Below the pieces are notes generated by a model. It was not told the origin of the DNA. It did not search any database and saw nothing but the letters and a program-made list of their open reading frames with translations. Source: Clostridiaceae bacterium (lineage in GTDB: Bacteria; Bacillota; Clostridia; Saccharofermentanales; UBA5734). From it: a stretch of DNA of 47,413 bases. Of the stretch, positions 1,629 through 24,089 are shown piece by piece (within the stretch, counting starts at the first letter, position 1; each line of letters starts with the position of its first letter). The translations under genes and the position numbers were made by a program. The stretch is from contig JAAYJD010000120.1 of NCBI GenBank assembly GCA_012523135.1, positions 1 through 47,413 on the forward strand, in the 5' to 3' direction.

Positions 1629-2930
1629 ATGGCAAAAGGACGGGACAGCTTCACCTGGCAATTGAAATTTTCGCTGATCCTGGGCGGGCAGGCCTTTTCC
1701 CTGATCGGATCGGGGCTGGTCCAGTTTTCGATCATCTGGTGGCTGACCCGCGAAACCGATTCGACCGTGATCTTATCTTTGGCGGCCATTACCGGCCTGG
1801 TGCCGGTGATTTTGCTCTCGCCGCTGGCCGGCGTCGTGGCCGACCGGATCAATCGCCGCCTGGTCATGATCATGTCAGATGCTTTTATCGCCCTGGCCAC
1901 GCTGGTCATGGCGGTGCTGATGAGCCTGGGCTACCGGCCCATCTGGCTGATCTTCGTGCTCTTGTTCCTGCGCGCGGCGGGCAGCGCCTTCCACCAGCCG
2001 GCCTTTGAGGCCGCCATTCCCCTGATCGCCCCGGAAATCCACCTGGTCCGGACGGCCGCCGTGACCCAGATCCTGCGCTCGGCGATCAGCTTTTTGGCGC
2101 CGCTATTGGGCGCGCTCCTGATCGAATGGCTGCCCCTGGCCCAGATCCTCCTGATCGATGTCGTCAGTGCGGGGATCGCCATCCTGCTGCTGCTGCCGGC
2201 GCCCATCCCCAGTGTCAGCCAGTCGGACGGTCTGCGGCATCCGCTGGCCGGCTACCTCCAGGATATGAAAATCGGCATCCAGTATGTCTTGCGCTGGAAG
2301 GGCCTTTTAGCCCTGATCATCGTTTTCGGCCTGTCCAACTTTTTGCTGGCTCCGGTCCTGTCGATGATGCCCCTGATCATCACGCGGCATTTTAACGGCG
2401 GCGCGCGCGAATACGGCTTTTTCGAAATGGCTTTGGCCATCGGGGTGATCGCCGGCAGCCTGTCGCTGTCCATTTGGGGTGGCTTCAAACGCAAGATCGT
2501 CAGCATCAACATCGCCCAGATCGTCTGCGGTTTGGGCCTGGCCGGGATCGCCCTGGTGGCCTCGGACAGTTTCTGGGTCGTGCTGGTGCTGATCGCGCTC
2601 TGTGGCTTGTGCTCGGCCTACATCAACTCGCCTGCCACGGCGATCATGCAGGCCAAGGTGGACAAGGAGATGCAGGGGCGCGTCATGTCGATCGTGACCG
2701 TGGTCTGCATGGTGGCGATGCCGCTGAGCCTGGCCATCGCCGGACCGCTGGCCAACGTGATCGGCCTGATGCCGATCGTCTATATCCCCGGACTGATCAG
2801 CACCCTGATCGGGATCGCCTGCTTCCTGATCAAGCCCCTGATGAACATTGAAAACAGGCGTGTCTCCAAACCCGTTCCGACCGGTTTGCTGGCGGGTTCC
2901 ACCGAACAGCCGGAAAACGCCGCCCCCTAG
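1629..2930 (+). CDS. MFS transporter (macrolide/multidrug exporter-like)
   Basis: A 433-residue integral membrane protein of the major facilitator superfamily, MFS_3-like, the branch that includes EntS and Mef-type efflux proteins. About 12 hydrophobic segments are visible. The loop after segment 2 has the family's motif A-like DRINRR (GVVADRINRRLVMIMSD), and segment 4 lies in an LRAAGSAFHQPAFEAAIP context typical of these exporters. The C-terminus has a short hydrophilic tail. ATG 1629 is preceded by AAGGGG. A TATAAT box at 1563-1568 could drive it but has no clear -35. The gene converges with the AEC transporter and their ends overlap by 4 bp. The substrate cannot be told; export of a drug-like or siderophore-like compound is a family-based guess. 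Confidence 0.85.
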   Translation: MAKGRDSFTWQLKFSLILGGQAFSLIGSGLVQFSIIWWLTRETDSTVILSLAAITGLVPVILLSPLAGVVADRINRRLVMIMSDAFIALATLVMAVLMSLGYRPIWLIFVLLFLRAAGSAFHQPAFEAAIPLIAPEIHLVRTAAVTQILRSAISFLAPLLGALLIEWLPLAQILLIDVVSAGIAILLLLPAPIPSVSQSDGLRHPLAGYLQDMKIGIQYVLRWKGLLALIIVFGLSNFLLAPVLSMMPLIITRHFNGGAREYGFFEMALAIGVIAGSLSLSIWGGFKRKIVSINIAQIVCGLGLAGIALVASDSFWVVLVLIALCGLCSAYINSPATAIMQAKVDKEMQGRVMSIVTVVCMVAMPLSLAIAGPLANVIGLMPIVYIPGLISTLIGIACFLIKPLMNIENRRVSKPVPTGLLAGSTEQPENAAP

Positions 2931-3856
2931 ATGAGCAGATCGTGGACAAGGATCAGCAAGGGCATCGTCAAGATGGATAAAAACGTTGTGACCGTCACCA
3001 GCTGGGTCGCCAGCGTCGTGTCCTGCTTGTAGCGCCCGGCGAAGATCGCGGTCGCAGCCGCGGCCGGCGCGGCCGCCGGGATCAGGATGGACAGGGCCAG
3101 CACCCGGTCGAGCGGGATGAGCAGCAAGCCCAGCAACATGACCAGGGGGACGACCAGCAAGCGCAGGGCGACGGCCAGGGAAAAAGAACCCGGACCGGTG
3201 ATCCGGTGCAGGCTGACCGACGCCATCTGGGCCCCGATAATGAACATGGCGACCGGCGAGTTGACCGCCGCGACATATTCGAGCACCCGCGTCGGCAGCG
3301 CGGGCAGGCGGATGCCCGCCAAAAACAGCGGCAGCCCGATCAGGAGCGCCACCGTACCGGGATTTAACAGCGCGCGGCGCAGCTTGATTTCCTGCTGCCG
3401 CCCGGCCATCAGGATGATTCCGTACGTCCATTGGGCGATGTTGAATACGGCGATATAGACCGAGCCATAGAAGATGCCCCGGCTGCCCAGGACGGCATCC
3501 AGCAAAGGCAGACACATGAAGCCGCAGTTGGAGAAGACCACCGCATAGGACAGAACCCGGCGGCGGCCGTCCGGCTGGTGCCGAAAGCAGATACGCCCGG
3601 CGACGGCGCCGACGACATGGGTCAGGACAGCGAACCCGGCTGCGATCAGGATCCCCAGGAGCAGCGTGCGCTCAAACGGCGTCTGGAACGAGAGGATGAT
3701 CACGGTCGGCGTGATGATCACCAAAAGCAGGTTGGTCAGCTGATGAACGCCCTGCTCGTCGAGCAGATGGAAACGACGGGCCGCCAACCCGACGAAAATC
3801 AGCAAAAACAGGATCAGGACCTGATTGCCGACCAAAAGCGCGTTGTCCCAAATCAT
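2927..3856 (-). CDS. AEC (auxin efflux carrier) family transporter
   Basis: A 309-residue membrane protein with about ten hydrophobic segments. The two-half arrangement suits the AEC family (PF03547): an N-terminal LLVGNQVLILFLLIFVGLAARR region, a central NCGFMCLPLL and GSRGIFYGSVYIAVFNIAQWT block, and a C-terminal half with MFIIGAQMA and a PAAAPAAAATAIFA segment. SNCGFMGLP-like motifs followed by a Y/W-rich helix are characteristic. Bacterial members include candidate malate, malonate and other organic acid carriers, so an organic anion is the likely substrate. The gene converges with the MFS gene and lies downstream of the NYN gene on the same strand, 73 bp away. No signature decides the substrate. 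Confidence 0.85.
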   Translation of the reverse strand: MIWDNALLVGNQVLILFLLIFVGLAARRFHLLDEQGVHQLTNLLLVIITPTVIILSFQTPFERTLLLGILIAAGFAVLTHVVGAVAGRICFRHQPDGRRRVLSYAVVFSNCGFMCLPLLDAVLGSRGIFYGSVYIAVFNIAQWTYGIILMAGRQQEIKLRRALLNPGTVALLIGLPLFLAGIRLPALPTRVLEYVAAVNSPVAMFIIGAQMASVSLHRITGPGSFSLAVALRLLVVPLVMLLGLLLIPLDRVLALSILIPAAAPAAAATAIFAGRYKQDTTLATQLVTVTTFLSILTMPLLILVHDLLI

Positions 3857-19503: not shown

Positions 19504-19659
19504 CTACTGCTGGCGCCGGGCATTCTTGCGAGCCCTGCGGCAATCCGGGCAACGGACAGGTTCGTTCTCAAACCCTTTTTCCTTGTAAAACGCTTGCTCA
19601 CCTTCTGTAAACGCGAATTCTGCACCGCAATCTTTGCACACGAGCATTTTGTCTGGCAT
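19504..19659 (-). CDS. Small CxxC zinc-ribbon protein
   Basis: A 51-residue protein with two CxxC knuckles: LVCKDCGAEFAFT near the start and VRCPDCRRARKNARRQQ at the end, with a GEQAFYKEKGF segment between. It matches the small probable zinc-ribbon family (FYEKGF...P.RC..CR pattern) found widely in bacteria, function unknown, possibly nucleic-acid binding given the basic tail. ATG 19657-19659 has AGGAGGTAT upstream, which decides the start over a longer reading. It converges with the GGDEF-EAL gene and shares its terminator. Confidence 0.8.
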   Translation of the reverse strand: MPDKMLVCKDCGAEFAFTEGEQAFYKEKGFENEPVRCPDCRRARKNARRQQ

Positions 19660-19774
19660 GATCCATACCTCCTGAAAATTTCGGATAAGGGATGAATGAC
19701 AGTGGCTTTCCAAGACATCGAGGAGGCATAAACCTTCTATTCAGTTGGGGCACGGTCAGTAAACAAGCTATCCG

Positions 19775-19804
19775 TTGTTGCGATCATAACATAAATGGTA
19801 TAAT
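19775..19804 (+). promoter_or_regulatory. Predicted promoter of the redox-signalling cassette
   Basis: -35 TTGTTG (19775-19780), 18-bp spacer, perfect -10 TATAAT (19799-19804). The leader to the first DRTGG gene is about 75 nt and AT-rich compared with the genes. No Rex-type TTGTTAA...TTAACAA palindrome was seen. Confidence 0.5.
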
Positions 19805-19884
19805 AGCACAAGGATGTTTTGAACATATGAATTTGTTTGCCGCATCTCCACCAGCGGGAGGTGTAAATTAAGGGAGTCGTGTAC

Positions 19885-20235
19885 ATGATCTTAAAGGATT
19901 GCATCAAGGTTCTCGATGCTCAAGTGGCGGTCAGCGTCCCTGATCTGGAGATGGACATCCAGGTGGCCTGCGGGGCCGACCTGATGAGCGACGTGATGGC
20001 GTTTGCCTGTACCAGCAATGAAATGCTGCTGACCGGCCTGGTCAATCCGCAGGCGATCCGCACCGCCGAGATGATGGATGTCAAGGTCGTCGTGTTCGTG
20101 CGCGGCAAGCAGCCCGGCGAGGCGGTTCTGGACCTGGCCCGTCAGAAAAGCATTTGTGTGCTGACCACGCCGCTGCCCATGTTCACGGCCTGCGGCCTGC
20201 TCTACAACCACGGCGTCATGGGCAAGGGGGGCTGA
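19885..20235 (+). CDS. DRTGG-domain protein (first copy)
   Basis: A 116-residue protein made of one DRTGG-like domain (PF07085), a fold also found in regulatory parts of phosphotransacetylases and CBS-domain PPases. The readable core is VSVPDLEMDIQVACGADLMSDVMAF, then LLTGLVNPQAIRTAEMMDVKVVVFVRG, then VLTTPLPMFTACGLLY. Its biochemical role is not known; nucleotide or ligand binding is suspected for the domain. It opens a run of seven co-directional genes with an ATPase, a hydrogenase-like protein, a second DRTGG, a PHP protein, a second ATPase and a ferredoxin. ATG 19885 is chosen for its GGGAG site; GTG 19879 is possible. Confidence 0.85.
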   Translation: MILKDCIKVLDAQVAVSVPDLEMDIQVACGADLMSDVMAFACTSNEMLLTGLVNPQAIRTAEMMDVKVVVFVRGKQPGEAVLDLARQKSICVLTTPLPMFTACGLLYNHGVMGKGG

Positions 20236-20238
20236 CCG

Positions 20239-20664
20239 ATCGAACCGCTGCGCCTGACTTTTGCCATTGTCGGTTCTGATTTCATTCATGCTGGCGAGGC
20301 GTCCAGCGGGGCCAAGAAGGCCCTGGCCAAGCTCGGCGTCCAGGCGCCGGTGGTCAAGCGCGCAGCGATCGCCATGTACGAAGCGGAGCTGAACACGGTC
20401 ATTCACGCCGGCGGCGGCTCTGCTGAAGTGGACATATACCCCGATCATGTCCAGATCCGGATCGTGGACCAAGGCCCCGGCATCGCAGATGTCAGCCTGG
20501 CCATGCAAGAGGGCTGGTCAACCGCCCCGGAGGCCGCCCGCGAAATGGGATTCGGTGCCGGCATGGGACTGCCCAACATCAAAAAACAAGCCGATGAGCT
20601 GCATATTGAGACCGAACCCGGCCGCGGCACCACCGTGACGATCCGGATCAATTTTCCGGCCTGA
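20239..20664 (+). CDS. Anti-sigma-factor-type ATP-binding protein (GHKL), apparent ATC start
   Basis: A small GHKL-fold ATPase of the SpoIIAB/RsbW type, about 141 residues. Conserved pieces are ASSGAKKALAKLGV, the N-box region YEAELNTVIHA, the G1 motif DQGPGIADVSLAM and the G2 motif MGFGAGMGLPNIKKQADEL. The homologous N-terminus begins right at 20239, in the same frame as the preceding DRTGG gene and two codons after its TGA. There is no ATG, GTG or TTG there: the codon is ATC with GGGGGG 7 bases upstream. The next GTG (20350) would remove the first helix and strand. Either a rare ATC start is used, the base is an error, or CTG 20248 is used. In such proteins the domain binds ATP and often a partner protein. 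Confidence 0.75.
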   Translation: MEPLRLTFAIVGSDFIHAGEASSGAKKALAKLGVQAPVVKRAAIAMYEAELNTVIHAGGGSAEVDIYPDHVQIRIVDQGPGIADVSLAMQEGWSTAPEAAREMGFGAGMGLPNIKKQADELHIETEPGRGTTVTIRINFPA

Positions 20665-20684
20665 AGGCTTCTCCCGGAGGAATC

Positions 20685-22046
20685 ATGTCCAAACTGCATT
20701 CAGTTAAACTGAACCGCGACCTTTGTGTCGGCTGCACCACGTGTATCCAGCGCTGCCCGACCGAAGCGATCCGGGTGCGCAACGGCAAAGCCCAGATCGC
20801 CGAAAACCGCTGCATCGACTGCGGCGAGTGCATCCGCATCTGTCCGCACCACGCCAAGAGCGCGGTCATGGACACGCTCGAGGACCTGGGCGGCACCGCC
20901 TTCAACGTCGCCCTGGCCGCTCCCTCCCTGTATGCCCAGTTCGGCCCGCCGGCCACCCGGGGGATGGTTCTGGCCGCCCTCGGCCTGTTGGGCTTCGATG
21001 CGGTCTATGAAGTGGCGCAGGGCGCGGAAATCGTCACAGCCAGCACCGTCGCCTATGTGCAGGAGGCCCTGAGCCAGGGACGTCGCCCGCTGATTTCCTC
21101 AGCCTGCCCGGCTGTCGTCCGCTTGATCCAGATGCGTTTTCCCAGCTTGGTCGAAAACCTGGTGCCATTCGATTCGCCGATGGAAGTGACGGCCGACCTG
21201 GCGCGCCGCCAGCTGGCGGCAAAAACCGGCTTGCCCCAGGATAAAATCGGCGTCTTTTTCATCAGCCCCTGCCCGGCCAAGCGAACCGCCGTGATCAACC
21301 CGATCGCCCGTTCTTCCAGCGGTGTCAACGGGGTGATCGCCATTTCGGACCTCTATCCGCTGATCCTGGCCGGCCTGGAGAAGATGGATGCCAAGACGGC
21401 CCTGCAGGAAGGCGAGAAGCTGCTGGCAGCCGGCTCGACCGGTGTCCGCTGGGCGTATACGGGCGGTGAAGCCATCGCCCTGCACACCGAACGCTACCTG
21501 GCCGTCGACGGGATTCACAACGTGATCGAGATCCTGGAAGAAGTGGAAAACGAGCGGCTGCACGATGTTGATTTCATCGAGGCCAACGCCTGCCTGGGCG
21601 GCTGCATCGGCGGACCGCTGACGGTGGCCAACCGCTTTTCCGCGCACGCGCGCCAGCGCGCTTTTGTCAGCCGGGCATCTGACGAGGCCAAAAAGGGGCG
21701 CTCCGGTGCTGTAGCGGCAGCGGCCGTGACGCTGCAACCCTGGGCGGAACTGCCGCCGCCCAACCCGGCCATGCAGCTGGACGAGGATATCGTCCAGGCG
21801 ATGCAGAAATACGAGCAGCTCAAGCAGATTGCCGCCAGGCTGCCCGGCCTGAACTGCGGCGCCTGCGGCGCACCGGATTGCGAAGCCCTGGCCGAAGACA
21901 TTGTCCGCGGTGAGGCGGCCGAGACCGACTGCATTTTCAAACTCAAGGAACGCATCCGCACGGTGGCCGCCGTGATGAGCGAACTGGGCGAGGAAATGAA
22001 CCGCTATGCCCCGCACCGGGAGGATGAGCCGCATGACCGTCCCTGA
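20685..22046 (+). CDS. [FeFe]-hydrogenase-like protein, probable sensory type
   Basis: A 453-residue iron-sulfur protein. An N-terminal two-cluster ferredoxin domain has CVGCTTCIQRCP (Cys14, 17, 20, 24) and CIDCGECIRICP (Cys43, 46, 49, 53). The hydrogenase domain follows, with H-cluster motifs SSACP (Cys141), SPCPAK (Cys196) and NACLGGCIGG (Cys303, Cys307). All four H-cluster cysteines are kept, but the position of the proton-relay cysteine (TSCCP in catalytic enzymes) is Ala140. A C-terminal Fe-S domain has LNCGACGAPDCEA plus a later Cys (391, 394, 399, 416). Alanine at that place is known from putative sensory hydrogenases. There is no PAS domain. Beside GHKL ATPases and DRTGG proteins, a sensing role is more likely than bulk H2 turnover. 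Confidence 0.88.
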   Translation: MSKLHSVKLNRDLCVGCTTCIQRCPTEAIRVRNGKAQIAENRCIDCGECIRICPHHAKSAVMDTLEDLGGTAFNVALAAPSLYAQFGPPATRGMVLAALGLLGFDAVYEVAQGAEIVTASTVAYVQEALSQGRRPLISSACPAVVRLIQMRFPSLVENLVPFDSPMEVTADLARRQLAAKTGLPQDKIGVFFISPCPAKRTAVINPIARSSSGVNGVIAISDLYPLILAGLEKMDAKTALQEGEKLLAAGSTGVRWAYTGGEAIALHTERYLAVDGIHNVIEILEEVENERLHDVDFIEANACLGGCIGGPLTVANRFSAHARQRAFVSRASDEAKKGRSGAVAAAAVTLQPWAELPPPNPAMQLDEDIVQAMQKYEQLKQIAARLPGLNCGACGAPDCEALAEDIVRGEAAETDCIFKLKERIRTVAAVMSELGEEMNRYAPHREDEPHDRP

Positions 22047-22374
22047 GCTGAGCCGCATCCTGAACGGCTTTGTTTTGACCGCTGAACCGCCCCGGGATGC
22101 AGCCGTAACCGGCGCCTACGCCTGCGATATGCTCAGCTGGGTCATGGCCCACGCCGGACCCGGCGATGTTTGGCTGACCATCCTGAACAGCATCAACGTC
22201 GTCGCGGTGGCGGAACTGACCGGCTGCACCTGTGTCGTCCTGACCGAAGGCGTGACGATGGAGCCGGCGGTTGTGGAGCGTGCGGGAGCGCGTAACGTCA
22301 CCATCCTGAGCACATCCCTGACGACTTTCCAGGCGGCCGGACGCCTCTATCCGCTCTTGTCCGGGCCTGTCTGA
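22033..22374 (+). CDS. DRTGG-domain protein (second copy)
   Basis: A 113-residue DRTGG-like domain protein, distinct in sequence from the first copy at 19885. Recognisable pieces are YACDMLSWVMAHAGPGDVWLTI, NSINVVAVAELTGCTCVVLTEG and ILSTSLTTFQAAGRLY. The last resembles the LLTTPLPMFTACGLLY end of copy one, so the two share a fold. Its start overlaps the end of the hydrogenase-like gene by 14 bp. ATG 22033 is chosen since GGGAGG is 9 bases upstream; ATG 22024 touches that site. The two copies may pair with each other or with the two ATPases; this is a guess. Confidence 0.82.
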   Translation: MTVPELSRILNGFVLTAEPPRDAAVTGAYACDMLSWVMAHAGPGDVWLTILNSINVVAVAELTGCTCVVLTEGVTMEPAVVERAGARNVTILSTSLTTFQAAGRLYPLLSGPV

Positions 22375-22379
22375 CCGGC

Positions 22380-23114
22380 ATGAAATGCTCTTACGACCTG
22401 CATATCCACAGCGCCTTGTCCCCCTGTGCCGAAAGGGACATGACGCCGCAAAACATCGTAGCGATGGCTAAACTGAAAGGGCTCGGTGCGATCGCCGTCA
22501 CCGATCACCAAAGCTGCGCCAACTGCGCGGCGCTGATCGGCGCGTCCCGCGATCTCGCCGGCCCTGTCGTCATTCCGGGGCTGGAGATCGAGTCTGCTGA
22601 GGAAATCCACCTGCTGTGTCTGCTGCCCGGTCTGACTGAAGCGCTGCAGATGCAGCGTATCGTCCAGGCGGCCCTGCCGCCGCGCCTGAATCGCCCGGAC
22701 ATCTTCGGCGGTCAGCAGCTGCTGGACCGTCATGACCGGTTGGTGGGGGAGGAGACGCGCCTGCTGCTGCAAGCCTGTACGCTGGACTGCCAGACGCTGG
22801 CCGGGCATGCGCTCGGACTGGGCGGCGTCCTGATCCCGGCCCACGTCGACCGCGACGCCTACAGCATGCTGCAGACGCTGGGCGCGATTCCCGGCGATTT
22901 TCCCACCGCCTGGCTTGAATTCAGCAGTCCCGGCGCGGCCCGGGACTGCCTCAGGCACCATCCGGAGCTCGCCGGGTACCAGATGCTCTACAACTCCGAC
23001 GCACACCGGCTCGGTGCCATATCCGAACCCGGGTTCAGTCTGGATCTGCCCGATGGCGCGGTCGGCGAACAGGCCCTCAGGCATGCCGTTCTGCAAGCAT
23101 TGCGGCCGTGTTAG
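22380..23114 (+). CDS. PHP-domain metal-dependent phosphoesterase
   Basis: A 244-residue PHP (polymerase and histidinol phosphatase) domain protein. The metal-binding motifs are all visible: DLHIHSALSPC at the N-terminus, AVTDHQSC, PGLEIESAEEIHLL, IPAHVDRDAY and YNSDAHRLG. The enzyme class hydrolyses phosphomonoesters or nucleotide-type phosphoesters with two or three metal ions; the substrate is unknown here. An insertion of about 70 residues rich in Leu/Gln separates the third and fourth motifs. It starts 6 bases after the second DRTGG gene and ends at the internal promoter at 23100-23128. In this cassette it could make or remove a small-molecule signal. Confidence 0.88.
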   Translation: MKCSYDLHIHSALSPCAERDMTPQNIVAMAKLKGLGAIAVTDHQSCANCAALIGASRDLAGPVVIPGLEIESAEEIHLLCLLPGLTEALQMQRIVQAALPPRLNRPDIFGGQQLLDRHDRLVGEETRLLLQACTLDCQTLAGHALGLGGVLIPAHVDRDAYSMLQTLGAIPGDFPTAWLEFSSPGAARDCLRHHPELAGYQMLYNSDAHRLGAISEPGFSLDLPDGAVGEQALRHAVLQALRPC

Positions 23115-23128
23115 GTCAATGATATAAT
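23100..23128 (+). promoter_or_regulatory. Predicted internal promoter in the redox cassette
   Basis: -35 TTGCGG (23100-23105), 17-bp spacer, perfect -10 TATAAT (23123-23128), overlapping the stop codon of the PHP gene. It could drive the second ATPase, the ferredoxin and the membrane protein separately from the upstream genes. Confidence 0.5.
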
Positions 23129-23161
23129 GGCTGGAGCGAACGGGAGGATGACGAAAAACGG

Positions 23162-23728
23162 ATGCGGGAACTGGCAGAACACCTGATGGACCTGGTCCAG
23201 AATGCACGGCGGGCCCGTGCCCGGCATATCGAGATGAGCATCACAGCCCTGCCCGAATCCGATCAGCTGATCCTGAAGGTGCAAGATGACGGTTCGGGCA
23301 TCCGTCCCGATTTGCTGGCGAAGGTGACGGACCCTTACGCGACCTCCCGGACCACCCGGCCGGTCGGACTTGGTCTGCCCCTGCTCAAGGAGCAATGCGA
23401 ACAGACGGGCGGACACATGAAGATCCGCTCGCTGGCGCAAATGGGGACAACCGTCGAAGCGGTTCTGGGCCTTCGCCACATCGACAGGCTGCCGCTCGGC
23501 GACATCGGCGGAACGATGGTCTTGCTGGTGATGGACGACCCGGATCAGGAATACCGCCTGGTTCTGAAAAGCCCCAGGGGCTGCCTGGACCTGGCGACTG
23601 CCGACCTGCGCAGGCAACTGCAGGAGGTGCCGCTCCACGATATGGCGGTGCTGGACTGGCTGGCTGCCTATGTGAAAGAACAACAAGAAACAATATTCGG
23701 AGGTGTCTTAGATGAAATCATTAGCTGA
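23162..23728 (+). CDS. GHKL ATP-binding protein (histidine-kinase-like ATPase)
   Basis: A 188-residue protein with a HATPase_c fold and no dimerisation or phosphoacceptor domain. The N-box is LMDLVQNARRARARHIEM, the G1 box is VQDDGSGIRPDLLAKVTDPYATSR, cut here to its core DDGSGI, and the G2 box is PVGLGLPLLKEQCEQTGG. The rest (about 110-188) is not recognisable and ends close to the ferredoxin gene, which it overlaps by 17 bp. It is a different subtype from the SpoIIAB-like ATPase at 20239: it resembles the catalytic domain of sensor kinases. ATG 23162 follows GGGAGG with a long spacer. Confidence 0.85.
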   Translation: MRELAEHLMDLVQNARRARARHIEMSITALPESDQLILKVQDDGSGIRPDLLAKVTDPYATSRTTRPVGLGLPLLKEQCEQTGGHMKIRSLAQMGTTVEAVLGLRHIDRLPLGDIGGTMVLLVMDDPDQEYRLVLKSPRGCLDLATADLRRQLQEVPLHDMAVLDWLAAYVKEQQETIFGGVLDEIIS

Positions 23729-24089
23729 ACTGGAAGCCATTCGGGACAAAGCCCGCGAGAACCTGTCTGCCCGCGCGAGCGGCGGCCGCAAAATCGTCGT
23801 CGGTATGGCGACCTGCGGCATCGCGGCCGGTGCCCGGCCCGTGATGAACGCCCTGGTTGAGGAACTGCGTGTCCGCGGCATCCATGATGTTCATGTCACC
23901 ATGACCGGCTGCATCGGGGTCTGCCGCCTGGAGCCGATTATCGAAGTGATCGAGGAAAACGGCGACAAGGTCACCTATGTCAAGATGGACCCGCTCAAGG
24001 CCAAGCGCGTGGTTGCGGAACATATCGTCAACGGCCGGATCTGTTCCGACCTGACCATCGGGGCGGCCGAACCCAGGGTGAAAGCCTGA
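23712..24089 (+). CDS. Thioredoxin-like (2Fe-2S) ferredoxin domain protein
   Basis: A 125-residue protein of the thioredoxin-like ferredoxin type related to the NuoE/HydC family. It contains VVGMATCGIAAGARPVMNAL and MTGCIGVCRLEPIIEV, giving three visible cysteines in the motif regions, as is usual for clostridial members of this small family as far as I recall. In the well-known electron-bifurcating hydrogenases such a protein precedes hydB and hydA; here those genes are missing and a membrane protein follows. ATG 23712 follows CGGAGGTG. It is the last recognisable gene of the cassette. Confidence 0.88.
   Translation: MKSLAELEAIRDKARENLSARASGGRKIVVGMATCGIAAGARPVMNALVEELRVRGIHDVHVTMTGCIGVCRLEPIIEVIEENGDKVTYVKMDPLKAKRVVAEHIVNGRICSDLTIGAAEPRVKA

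Follow-up and report, generated by a model that had tools for sequence, protein, structure and literature searches.

The 47,413-nucleotide stretch of Clostridiaceae DNA analysed here (the window, contig C2 in a draft genome of 3.4 Mb, G000, that comprises 366 contigs and is 97.5% complete and 4.6% contaminated) carries seven plus-strand genes between positions 19885 and 24089, DRTGG1, ATP1, HydS, DRTGG2, PHP, ATP2 and Fd, of which HydS encodes a homologue of [FeFe] hydrogenases. On balance, we lean towards reading this cassette as the accessory-complete locus of a putatively sensory group D [FeFe] hydrogenase, in which hydC, hydB and hydA are no longer interleaved and from which a relay would run from HydS to its helper proteins, with hydCBA as its target. 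That the cassette is far beyond chance follows from the recurrence of the same order in 80 loci and from the dN/dS values, 0.04–0.23 for all seven genes. Between the window and the relative G003, these are 0.065 for DRTGG1, 0.079 for ATP1, 0.102 for HydS, 0.168 for DRTGG2, 0.143 for PHP, 0.230 for ATP2 and 0.037 for Fd, so that all seven are under purifying selection.

An initial annotation of this DNA had presented the seven genes as a candidate new system with an undescribed output. The genes and their namings are all confirmed (the Pfam evidence being weak for DRTGG1 and the 2Fe-2S protein Fd), and we too found no description, in the open-access literature, of the DRTGG and PHP genes of group D loci or of any output. 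The novelty does not hold, since a group D HydS encoded upstream of a bifurcating hydrogenase has already been described and labelled putatively sensory (PMC8163306, PMC10407848): the locus is an unlinked, family-wide form of a known putative sensor locus, not a new system.

HydS and its conserved neighbourhood

Residues, domains and phylogeny together place HydS almost certainly in group D (M2e). Pfam detects Fe_hyd_lg_C (130.9 bits), FeS (50.7 bits) and also Fer4 domains, in the order two N-terminal 4Fe-4S sites, H-domain and C-terminal, four-cysteine 4Fe-4S site, and each of the 16 cysteines is invariant in all 98 aligned sequences (the window protein and 97 relatives). In the numbering of Thermoanaerobacter wiegelii HydS, which reproduces the residues named in published work (PMC10407848, PMC11803613), this alignment gives A137, C138, S191, C193, K196, E252, D265, E289, C293 and C297. 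A137 is an alanine at the position of the proton-path cysteine; E252, E289 and D265 are the group D path residues, all present; and position 291 is an asparagine, as in all members of the window's family and half of the other relatives. No PAS domain is found in HydS by Pfam, which leaves it outside group C with its PAS-fused H-domain. In the tree, HydS falls in a single clade with Thermoanaerobacter HydS (L042; support 97), apart from HydA and from PAS-/MCP-type proteins. Calling the set one 'without hydrogenase catalytic genes', as the initial annotation did, is right for hydC, hydB and hydA at the locus and wrong for HydS, which has every H-cluster cysteine; an Fe-S/H-cluster input, also proposed there, would be consistent with this full ligand set.

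The core order DRTGG1-ATP1-HydS-DRTGG2-PHP is conserved across the 80 genome loci surveyed and is followed in most of them by hydC-ATP2-Fd-hydB-hydA, this second half being sometimes on the opposite strand. Of the 51 loci whose right flank extends for 8.5 kb or more, 33 have full hydCBA, 15 have the core alone, two are intermediate and the remaining one (L011, from the window's family) has only ATP2 and Fd after the core. The link to the bifurcating hydrogenase given in the initial annotation is therefore genuine, but the set does not simply precede hydB/hydA, since hydC usually sits between PHP and ATP2. Core-alone genomes have their ATP2 elsewhere in 15 of 16 cases, 13 of them inside hydC-ATP2-Fd-hydB and two (G161 and G152) behind DRTGG1-DRTGG2-PHP, with no hydC; in these two, the resulting DRTGG1-DRTGG2-PHP-ATP2 operon (L125 and L134) lies apart from ATP1-HydS. 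Clustering of the other genes within 10 kb of the 80 HydS loci uncovered no recurrent regulator: the largest neighbour family reaches at most seven loci, and no transcription factor, sigma factor, phosphatase or, specifically, PP2C phosphatase recurs. DRTGG1 is naturally fused to ATP1 in L058, and HydS to DRTGG2 in L123, which suggests a contact within each pair. Apparent DRTGG2-PHP fusions, predicted from long open frames, were dismissed as overlapping frames.

Within the window's family, sampled as 23 genomes from nine genera, 18 genomes have HydS and all 23 have [FeFe] hydrogenase matches. Neither the window nor any of 17 related loci has hydC, hydB or hydA beside HydS in the stretches covered (10-kb criterion), and ATP2 directly follows PHP wherever the contig extends far enough. 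Fd comes after ATP2 in genera g1, g3, g5, g7 and g9 and is absent beside the cassette in g2 and g8, which keep the other six genes. Since the family HydS sequences form one clade, the unlinked arrangement is old and inherited, and a block running from homoserine dehydrogenase to prfB around the cassette is conserved across the genera. Malic enzyme was considered as a target of the cassette and rejected: it follows in g1, g2, g3 and g5 but is missing there from g8 and g9, with the remaining genes of the block conserved, and its position is therefore inherited synteny.

Co-inheritance points the same way. PHP is present in 17 of the 18 family genomes with HydS and in none of the five without, which retain HydA (hypergeometric 1.8e-4, kinship ignored); the sole exception, G014, is 59% complete and has a short contig. 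ATP2 is found in eight of eight genomes with HydS and in none of four without, among those tested and again ignoring kinship. PHP and ATP2 therefore track HydS, not HydA, and, because hydC, hydB and hydA can be absent from the locus with ATP2 still present, ATP2 belongs with the sensor. The idea of a self-sufficient module thus fares well in this family.

Hydrogenase and maturation genes elsewhere in the genome

The genome of the window is not hydrogenase-free. Its four Fe_hyd_lg_C matches are HydS itself, two HydA encoded in full hydCBA operons and a fragment. The first operon, on contig C151 (L005), is a full hydC-hydB-hydA; the second, on C266 (L007), encodes a 1032-residue HydB with a C-terminal pyridine-nucleotide oxidoreductase part. 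Both full HydA score above the NCBIfam cut-off for the NADH-dependent group A6, and beside neither set lies an ATP2 or a stand-alone Fd gene. The hydA and hydB genes whose presence elsewhere the initial annotation had listed as part of what would count against it do, therefore, exist. The fragment is a partial third HydA at the end of contig C69 (L006), with no hydB or hydC, and might stem from a contaminant or a broken assembly. Bifurcating-type HydA (these two and 44 other copies) reads TSCSPGW where TSCCPGW is usual, so that a serine aligns with a cysteine that ligates the cubane. That such HydA are degenerate, a cubane ligand having been lost together with the missing HydEFG, was considered and discarded, as TSCSPGW is common to all 46 copies showing the stretch and occurs in the solved Acetobacterium woodii HydA1.

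The distribution of the maturases HydE, HydF and HydG adds a puzzle. Above cut-off, HydG and HydF are each found in seven of the 23 family genomes (HydF in one more, truncated) and HydE in six, in nearly the same genomes; about 15 of the 23 have no detectable HydE, HydF or HydG though HydA and HydS are present, in a pattern that runs along genus lines, and all three are missing from the genome of the window and from three of the four other genomes of its genus. At the order level, HydG is found in 46 of 148 genomes and HydS in 37, about half of the latter being without a HydG match. Since the three genes can cluster together (as in G006 and G008), one missing contig could drop all three from a draft; their loss is probably real, since the pattern follows genus lines. 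Pocket residues of HydS are identical in genomes with and without HydEFG, according to the 98-sequence alignment. We found no description of such HydEFG-less bacteria in the open-access literature. It is a long shot, in our opinion, that these genera keep an intact group D sensor and a bifurcating HydA after losing HydEFG, and either obtain the H-cluster by an alternative route of assembly or acquisition or run the sensor on Fe-S clusters alone, its diiron pocket being repurposed. Were there such a route, one would look first to the six accessory proteins, and a genuine lack of HydEFG would in any case raise the question of how these bacteria make the H-cluster. A HydG/HydE-like radical-SAM match on contig C176 (L106, 976–2025), the sole radical-SAM match in the genome, was set aside as PylB (456 bits). 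PylB reaches 150 bits against the HydE model and 67–71 bits against HydG, and is mistakable for a maturase in loose searches; as a methylornithine synthase, on a contig of about 9.4 kb, it hints at a capacity for pyrrolysine synthesis, either of this organism or of the source of a contaminant contig.

Helper proteins, a putative relay and its rivals

Among the helpers, PHP (Pfam, 27.8 bits) is the best defined. Its metal residues H8, H10, D42, H43, E69, H77, H155, D207 and H209 are conserved at 100% in 91 relatives, and its model (pLDDT 97.5) is nearest in fold to EndoQ (Z 20.5, 2.9 Å, 212 residues), followed by RNase AM (Z 16.3) and the AMP-bound phosphatase 2yb1 (Z 15.3), whereas histidinol and tyrosine phosphatases do not exceed Z 8. 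In its predicted structure, PHP therefore resembles nucleic-acid/nucleotide phosphoesterases. DRTGG2 is recognised by the Pfam DRTGG family (34.5 bits) and DRTGG1 falls under its cut-off (18.4 bits); the latter matches the CBS/DRTGG region of the inorganic pyrophosphatase 3l2b (E 6.5e-5), and its M3 is invariant in 94 relatives. Fd, also under cut-off (2Fe-2S_thioredx, 20.9 bits), has as nearest solved match the N-terminal domain of NfnB (9n5u, E 7e-17), as in NfnB/HydB-type subunits. Since its only invariant cysteines in 54 relatives are C35, C67 and C71, along with H104, cluster ligation may differ from the usual four cysteines.

The two ATPases (HATPase_c, 47.8 bits for ATP1 and 57.8 for ATP2) have only the ATPase domain by Pfam, with no DHp or other histidine phosphorylation domain. 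ATP1 has its N, G1 and G2 boxes conserved at 97–100% in 98 relatives (E49, N53, H57, D78, G80, G82, G105–G111), and its best solved-structure matches are SpoIIAB. The ATP2 model (pLDDT 89.6) begins in the ATPase fold and best matches MutL over residues 1–166 (VIA-align Z 13.2), GyrB and TopoVI being close behind. No ATG, GTG or TTG precedes the conserved N-terminus of ATP1 (window 20233–20280; L107, L108, L111, L112, L118–L120, L123); at the homologous start position, the family members have an ATC or CTG codon preceded by a strong AAGGGGG motif, and in the window this codon lies in frame after the single TGA-C stop of DRTGG1. The start is probably the near-cognate ATC at 20239, translation occurring either from a near-cognate start or by read-through of the DRTGG1 stop.

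How might such a machinery work? The role of HydS is likely to be sensory or regulatory rather than bulk catalytic, and we propose that it responds to H2 or redox state with the very slow turnover that has been measured for TamHydS, the Thermoanaerobacter mathranii protein, which has low activity and is proposed to be sensory (PMC8163306, PMC10407848) and which works some thousand times more slowly than group A enzymes (PMC11803613). Through direct contacts, HydS would convey its state along two arms, one comprising DRTGG2 and PHP and the other DRTGG1 and ATP1; the DRTGG proteins would serve as contact adaptors. ATP1 and ATP2 would be ATP-gated partners bypassing the customary STAS and response-regulator routes, and the 2Fe-2S protein a redox-gated one. 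The likeliest enzymatic output would be PHP, with RNA or a nucleotide, not a phosphoprotein, as its substrate, and the relay would act on the hydCBA complexes that the genome encodes at other loci, changing either their expression or their activity. This chain is at its weakest between HydS and PHP, and a specific PHP-nucleotide relay should be viewed as tentative and rather doubtful.

Several points weigh against this scheme. In-cell H2 sensing has, to our knowledge, been experimentally demonstrated for no group D protein. No regulator or target is encoded near the cassette, the HydS-DRTGG2 fusion is known from a single draft genome, and fold likeness alone sets no substrate for PHP. HydE, HydF and HydG have no match above cut-off in this 97.5% complete draft, and H-cluster assembly is therefore unproved there. 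Finally, TamHydS without its C-terminal cluster shows barely altered catalysis, and that cluster stays unreduced at 1 atm H2, results of a 2026 study that challenge earlier relay ideas (PMC13104023) and therefore weaken a relay through this cluster.

Other explanations account for some of the same evidence. The accessory proteins could be chaperone-like factors for assembly or quality control, loading or checking the Fe-S/H-clusters of HydS and HydABC with nothing being sensed. The likeness of the ATP2 model to MutL/GyrB-type ATP-gated clamps, the fact that most genomes have ATP2 and Fd flanked by hydC and hydB and the many family members that, without HydEFG, would need other assembly factors all agree with this; we nevertheless find it unlikely, because family genomes that have HydA without HydS lack both PHP and ATP2, which are therefore not needed for HydA, because genomes with HydEFG retain the cassette (G008, G016–G020) and because the two hydCBA operons of the present genome do without an adjoining ATP2 or Fd. 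Even less probable is that HydS is a slow catalytic hydrogenase or electron sink with a 2Fe-2S partner, the remainder being its ordinary regulation: TamHydS does slowly turn over H2 (PMC10407848), all H-cluster ligands are retained and the cassette has a ferredoxin-like gene, yet the group A proton-path residues are replaced in HydS (A137, E252) and genera g2 and g8 dispense with the neighbouring Fd.

An improbable third scenario is a partner-switching anti-sigma module, in which ATP1 would bind a sigma factor, freed by a dephosphorylated antagonist, and DRTGG1 would replace the STAS protein. DRTGG1 always adjoins ATP1, and is fused to it once, and SpoIIAB is the best solved match of ATP1. However, ATP1 scores 51.7 bits with the NCBIfam spIIAB model, far under the cut-off of 135; STAS (PF01740) is found nowhere in the genome and in 10 of 23 relatives as one protein each, of transporter size (about 550 residues); and the recurrent neighbours of the cassette include neither a sigma factor nor a PP2C phosphatase. 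The absence of SpoIIAA-type STAS and of a recurrent regulator also speaks against the earlier suggestion that the ATPases bind partner regulators.

Several biochemical groups study group D [FeFe] hydrogenases. The published studies considered here (PMC8163306, PMC10407848, PMC11803613, PMC13104023) centre on the hydrogenase itself and mention no more than two of its neighbouring genes. By separating the sensor genes (DRTGG1, ATP1, DRTGG2, PHP and ATP2, with Fd optional) from the enzyme genes (hydC, hydB and hydA), the family gives a defined list of signalling candidates, with a nucleotide or RNA phosphoesterase as likely output, and allows the sensor and its helpers to be studied apart from the hydrogen-making genes.

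Gene layout and comparison with known systems

The genes of the cassette are tightly packed, as the initial annotation had it, with gaps of 3–47 bp or overlaps: 3 bp between DRTGG1 and ATP1, 20 bp between ATP1 and HydS, 5 bp between DRTGG2 and PHP, 47 bp between PHP and ATP2, and overlaps between HydS and DRTGG2 and between ATP2 and Fd.

Genes of the cassette, in window coordinates
Gene and product	Position	Strand	Basis
DRTGG1, single-DRTGG-domain protein	19885..20235	+	ATG at 19885 is the start conserved among relatives
ATP1, SpoIIAB-like GHKL ATPase	20239..20664	+	Pfam HATPase_c; conserved boxes; solved-structure matches
HydS, group D (M2e) [FeFe]-hydrogenase homologue	20685..22046	+	Pfam; 98-sequence alignment; tree
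DRTGG2, second single-DRTGG protein	22033..22374	+	Pfam DRTGG; 88 relatives; start overlaps HydS stop
PHP phosphoesterase, metal-binding residue set complete	22380..23114	+	Pfam PHP; conservation; model; fold matches
ATP2, GHKL ATPase with C-terminal extension	23162..23728	+	Pfam HATPase_c; model; fold match
Fd, HndB-like thioredoxin-fold [2Fe-2S]-type protein	23712..24089	+	Pfam 2Fe-2S_thioredx; conservation; NfnB match

On the 3' side, 52 bp after Fd, come a membrane protein gene without family and malic enzyme, both as previously noted, then an Lrp-type regulator and an aminotransferase. On the 5' side lie a GGDEF-EAL gene and a gene for a small zf_Tbcl (treble clef) protein on the opposite strand (19504–19713, minus strand); the latter adjoins the cassette in most family genomes. 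The GGDEF-EAL gene has an in-frame stop inside the aligned region in the relative G003 (L107, about 1892–3643) and is absent from this place in several genera. No RNA families, tandem repeats or promoter patterns were found in the cassette.

TamHydS, the only characterised group D enzyme that we found in the open-access literature, is the closest known system. It has the same domain order, cofactor ligands and A137/E252/D265/E289 as the window HydS, likewise no PAS domain and a flanking gene for a kinase-like ATPase; it differs in having a leucine instead of an asparagine at position 291 and in being encoded upstream of a bifurcating hydrogenase, whereas the hydC, hydB and hydA of the window's genome are elsewhere. 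Besides the kinase-like ATPase gene, TamHydS is flanked by the gene for an AraC regulator (PMC8163306). The PAS-linked sensors of group C (TmHydS and Ruminococcus albus HydS; PMC10055695, PMC6776011) share the C-terminal 4Fe-4S site, the alanine at the proton-path cysteine and a proposed sensing role, but are coupled through PAS to a kinase or phosphatase, in place of which the present locus has PHP, DRTGG proteins and GHKL ATPases. In the HydABC operons of the hydC-ATPase-HndB-like-hydB-hydA type, the two extra genes are orthologues of ATP2 and Fd, which here both stand behind PHP, with no hydC, hydB or hydA. As for the individual helpers, (i) ATP1 has the same ATP-binding boxes as its closest solved relative, the anti-sigma F kinase SpoIIAB, but is under the family cut-off and has no STAS antagonist in its genome, (ii) two-component histidine kinases have a DHp next to the ATPase domain, unlike ATP1 and ATP2, and (iii) PHP has the fold and all the metal residues of EndoQ, RNase AM and 3',5'-nucleoside bisphosphate phosphatase, from which it differs by an identity of about 20% over the fold and by consisting of a single PHP domain only.

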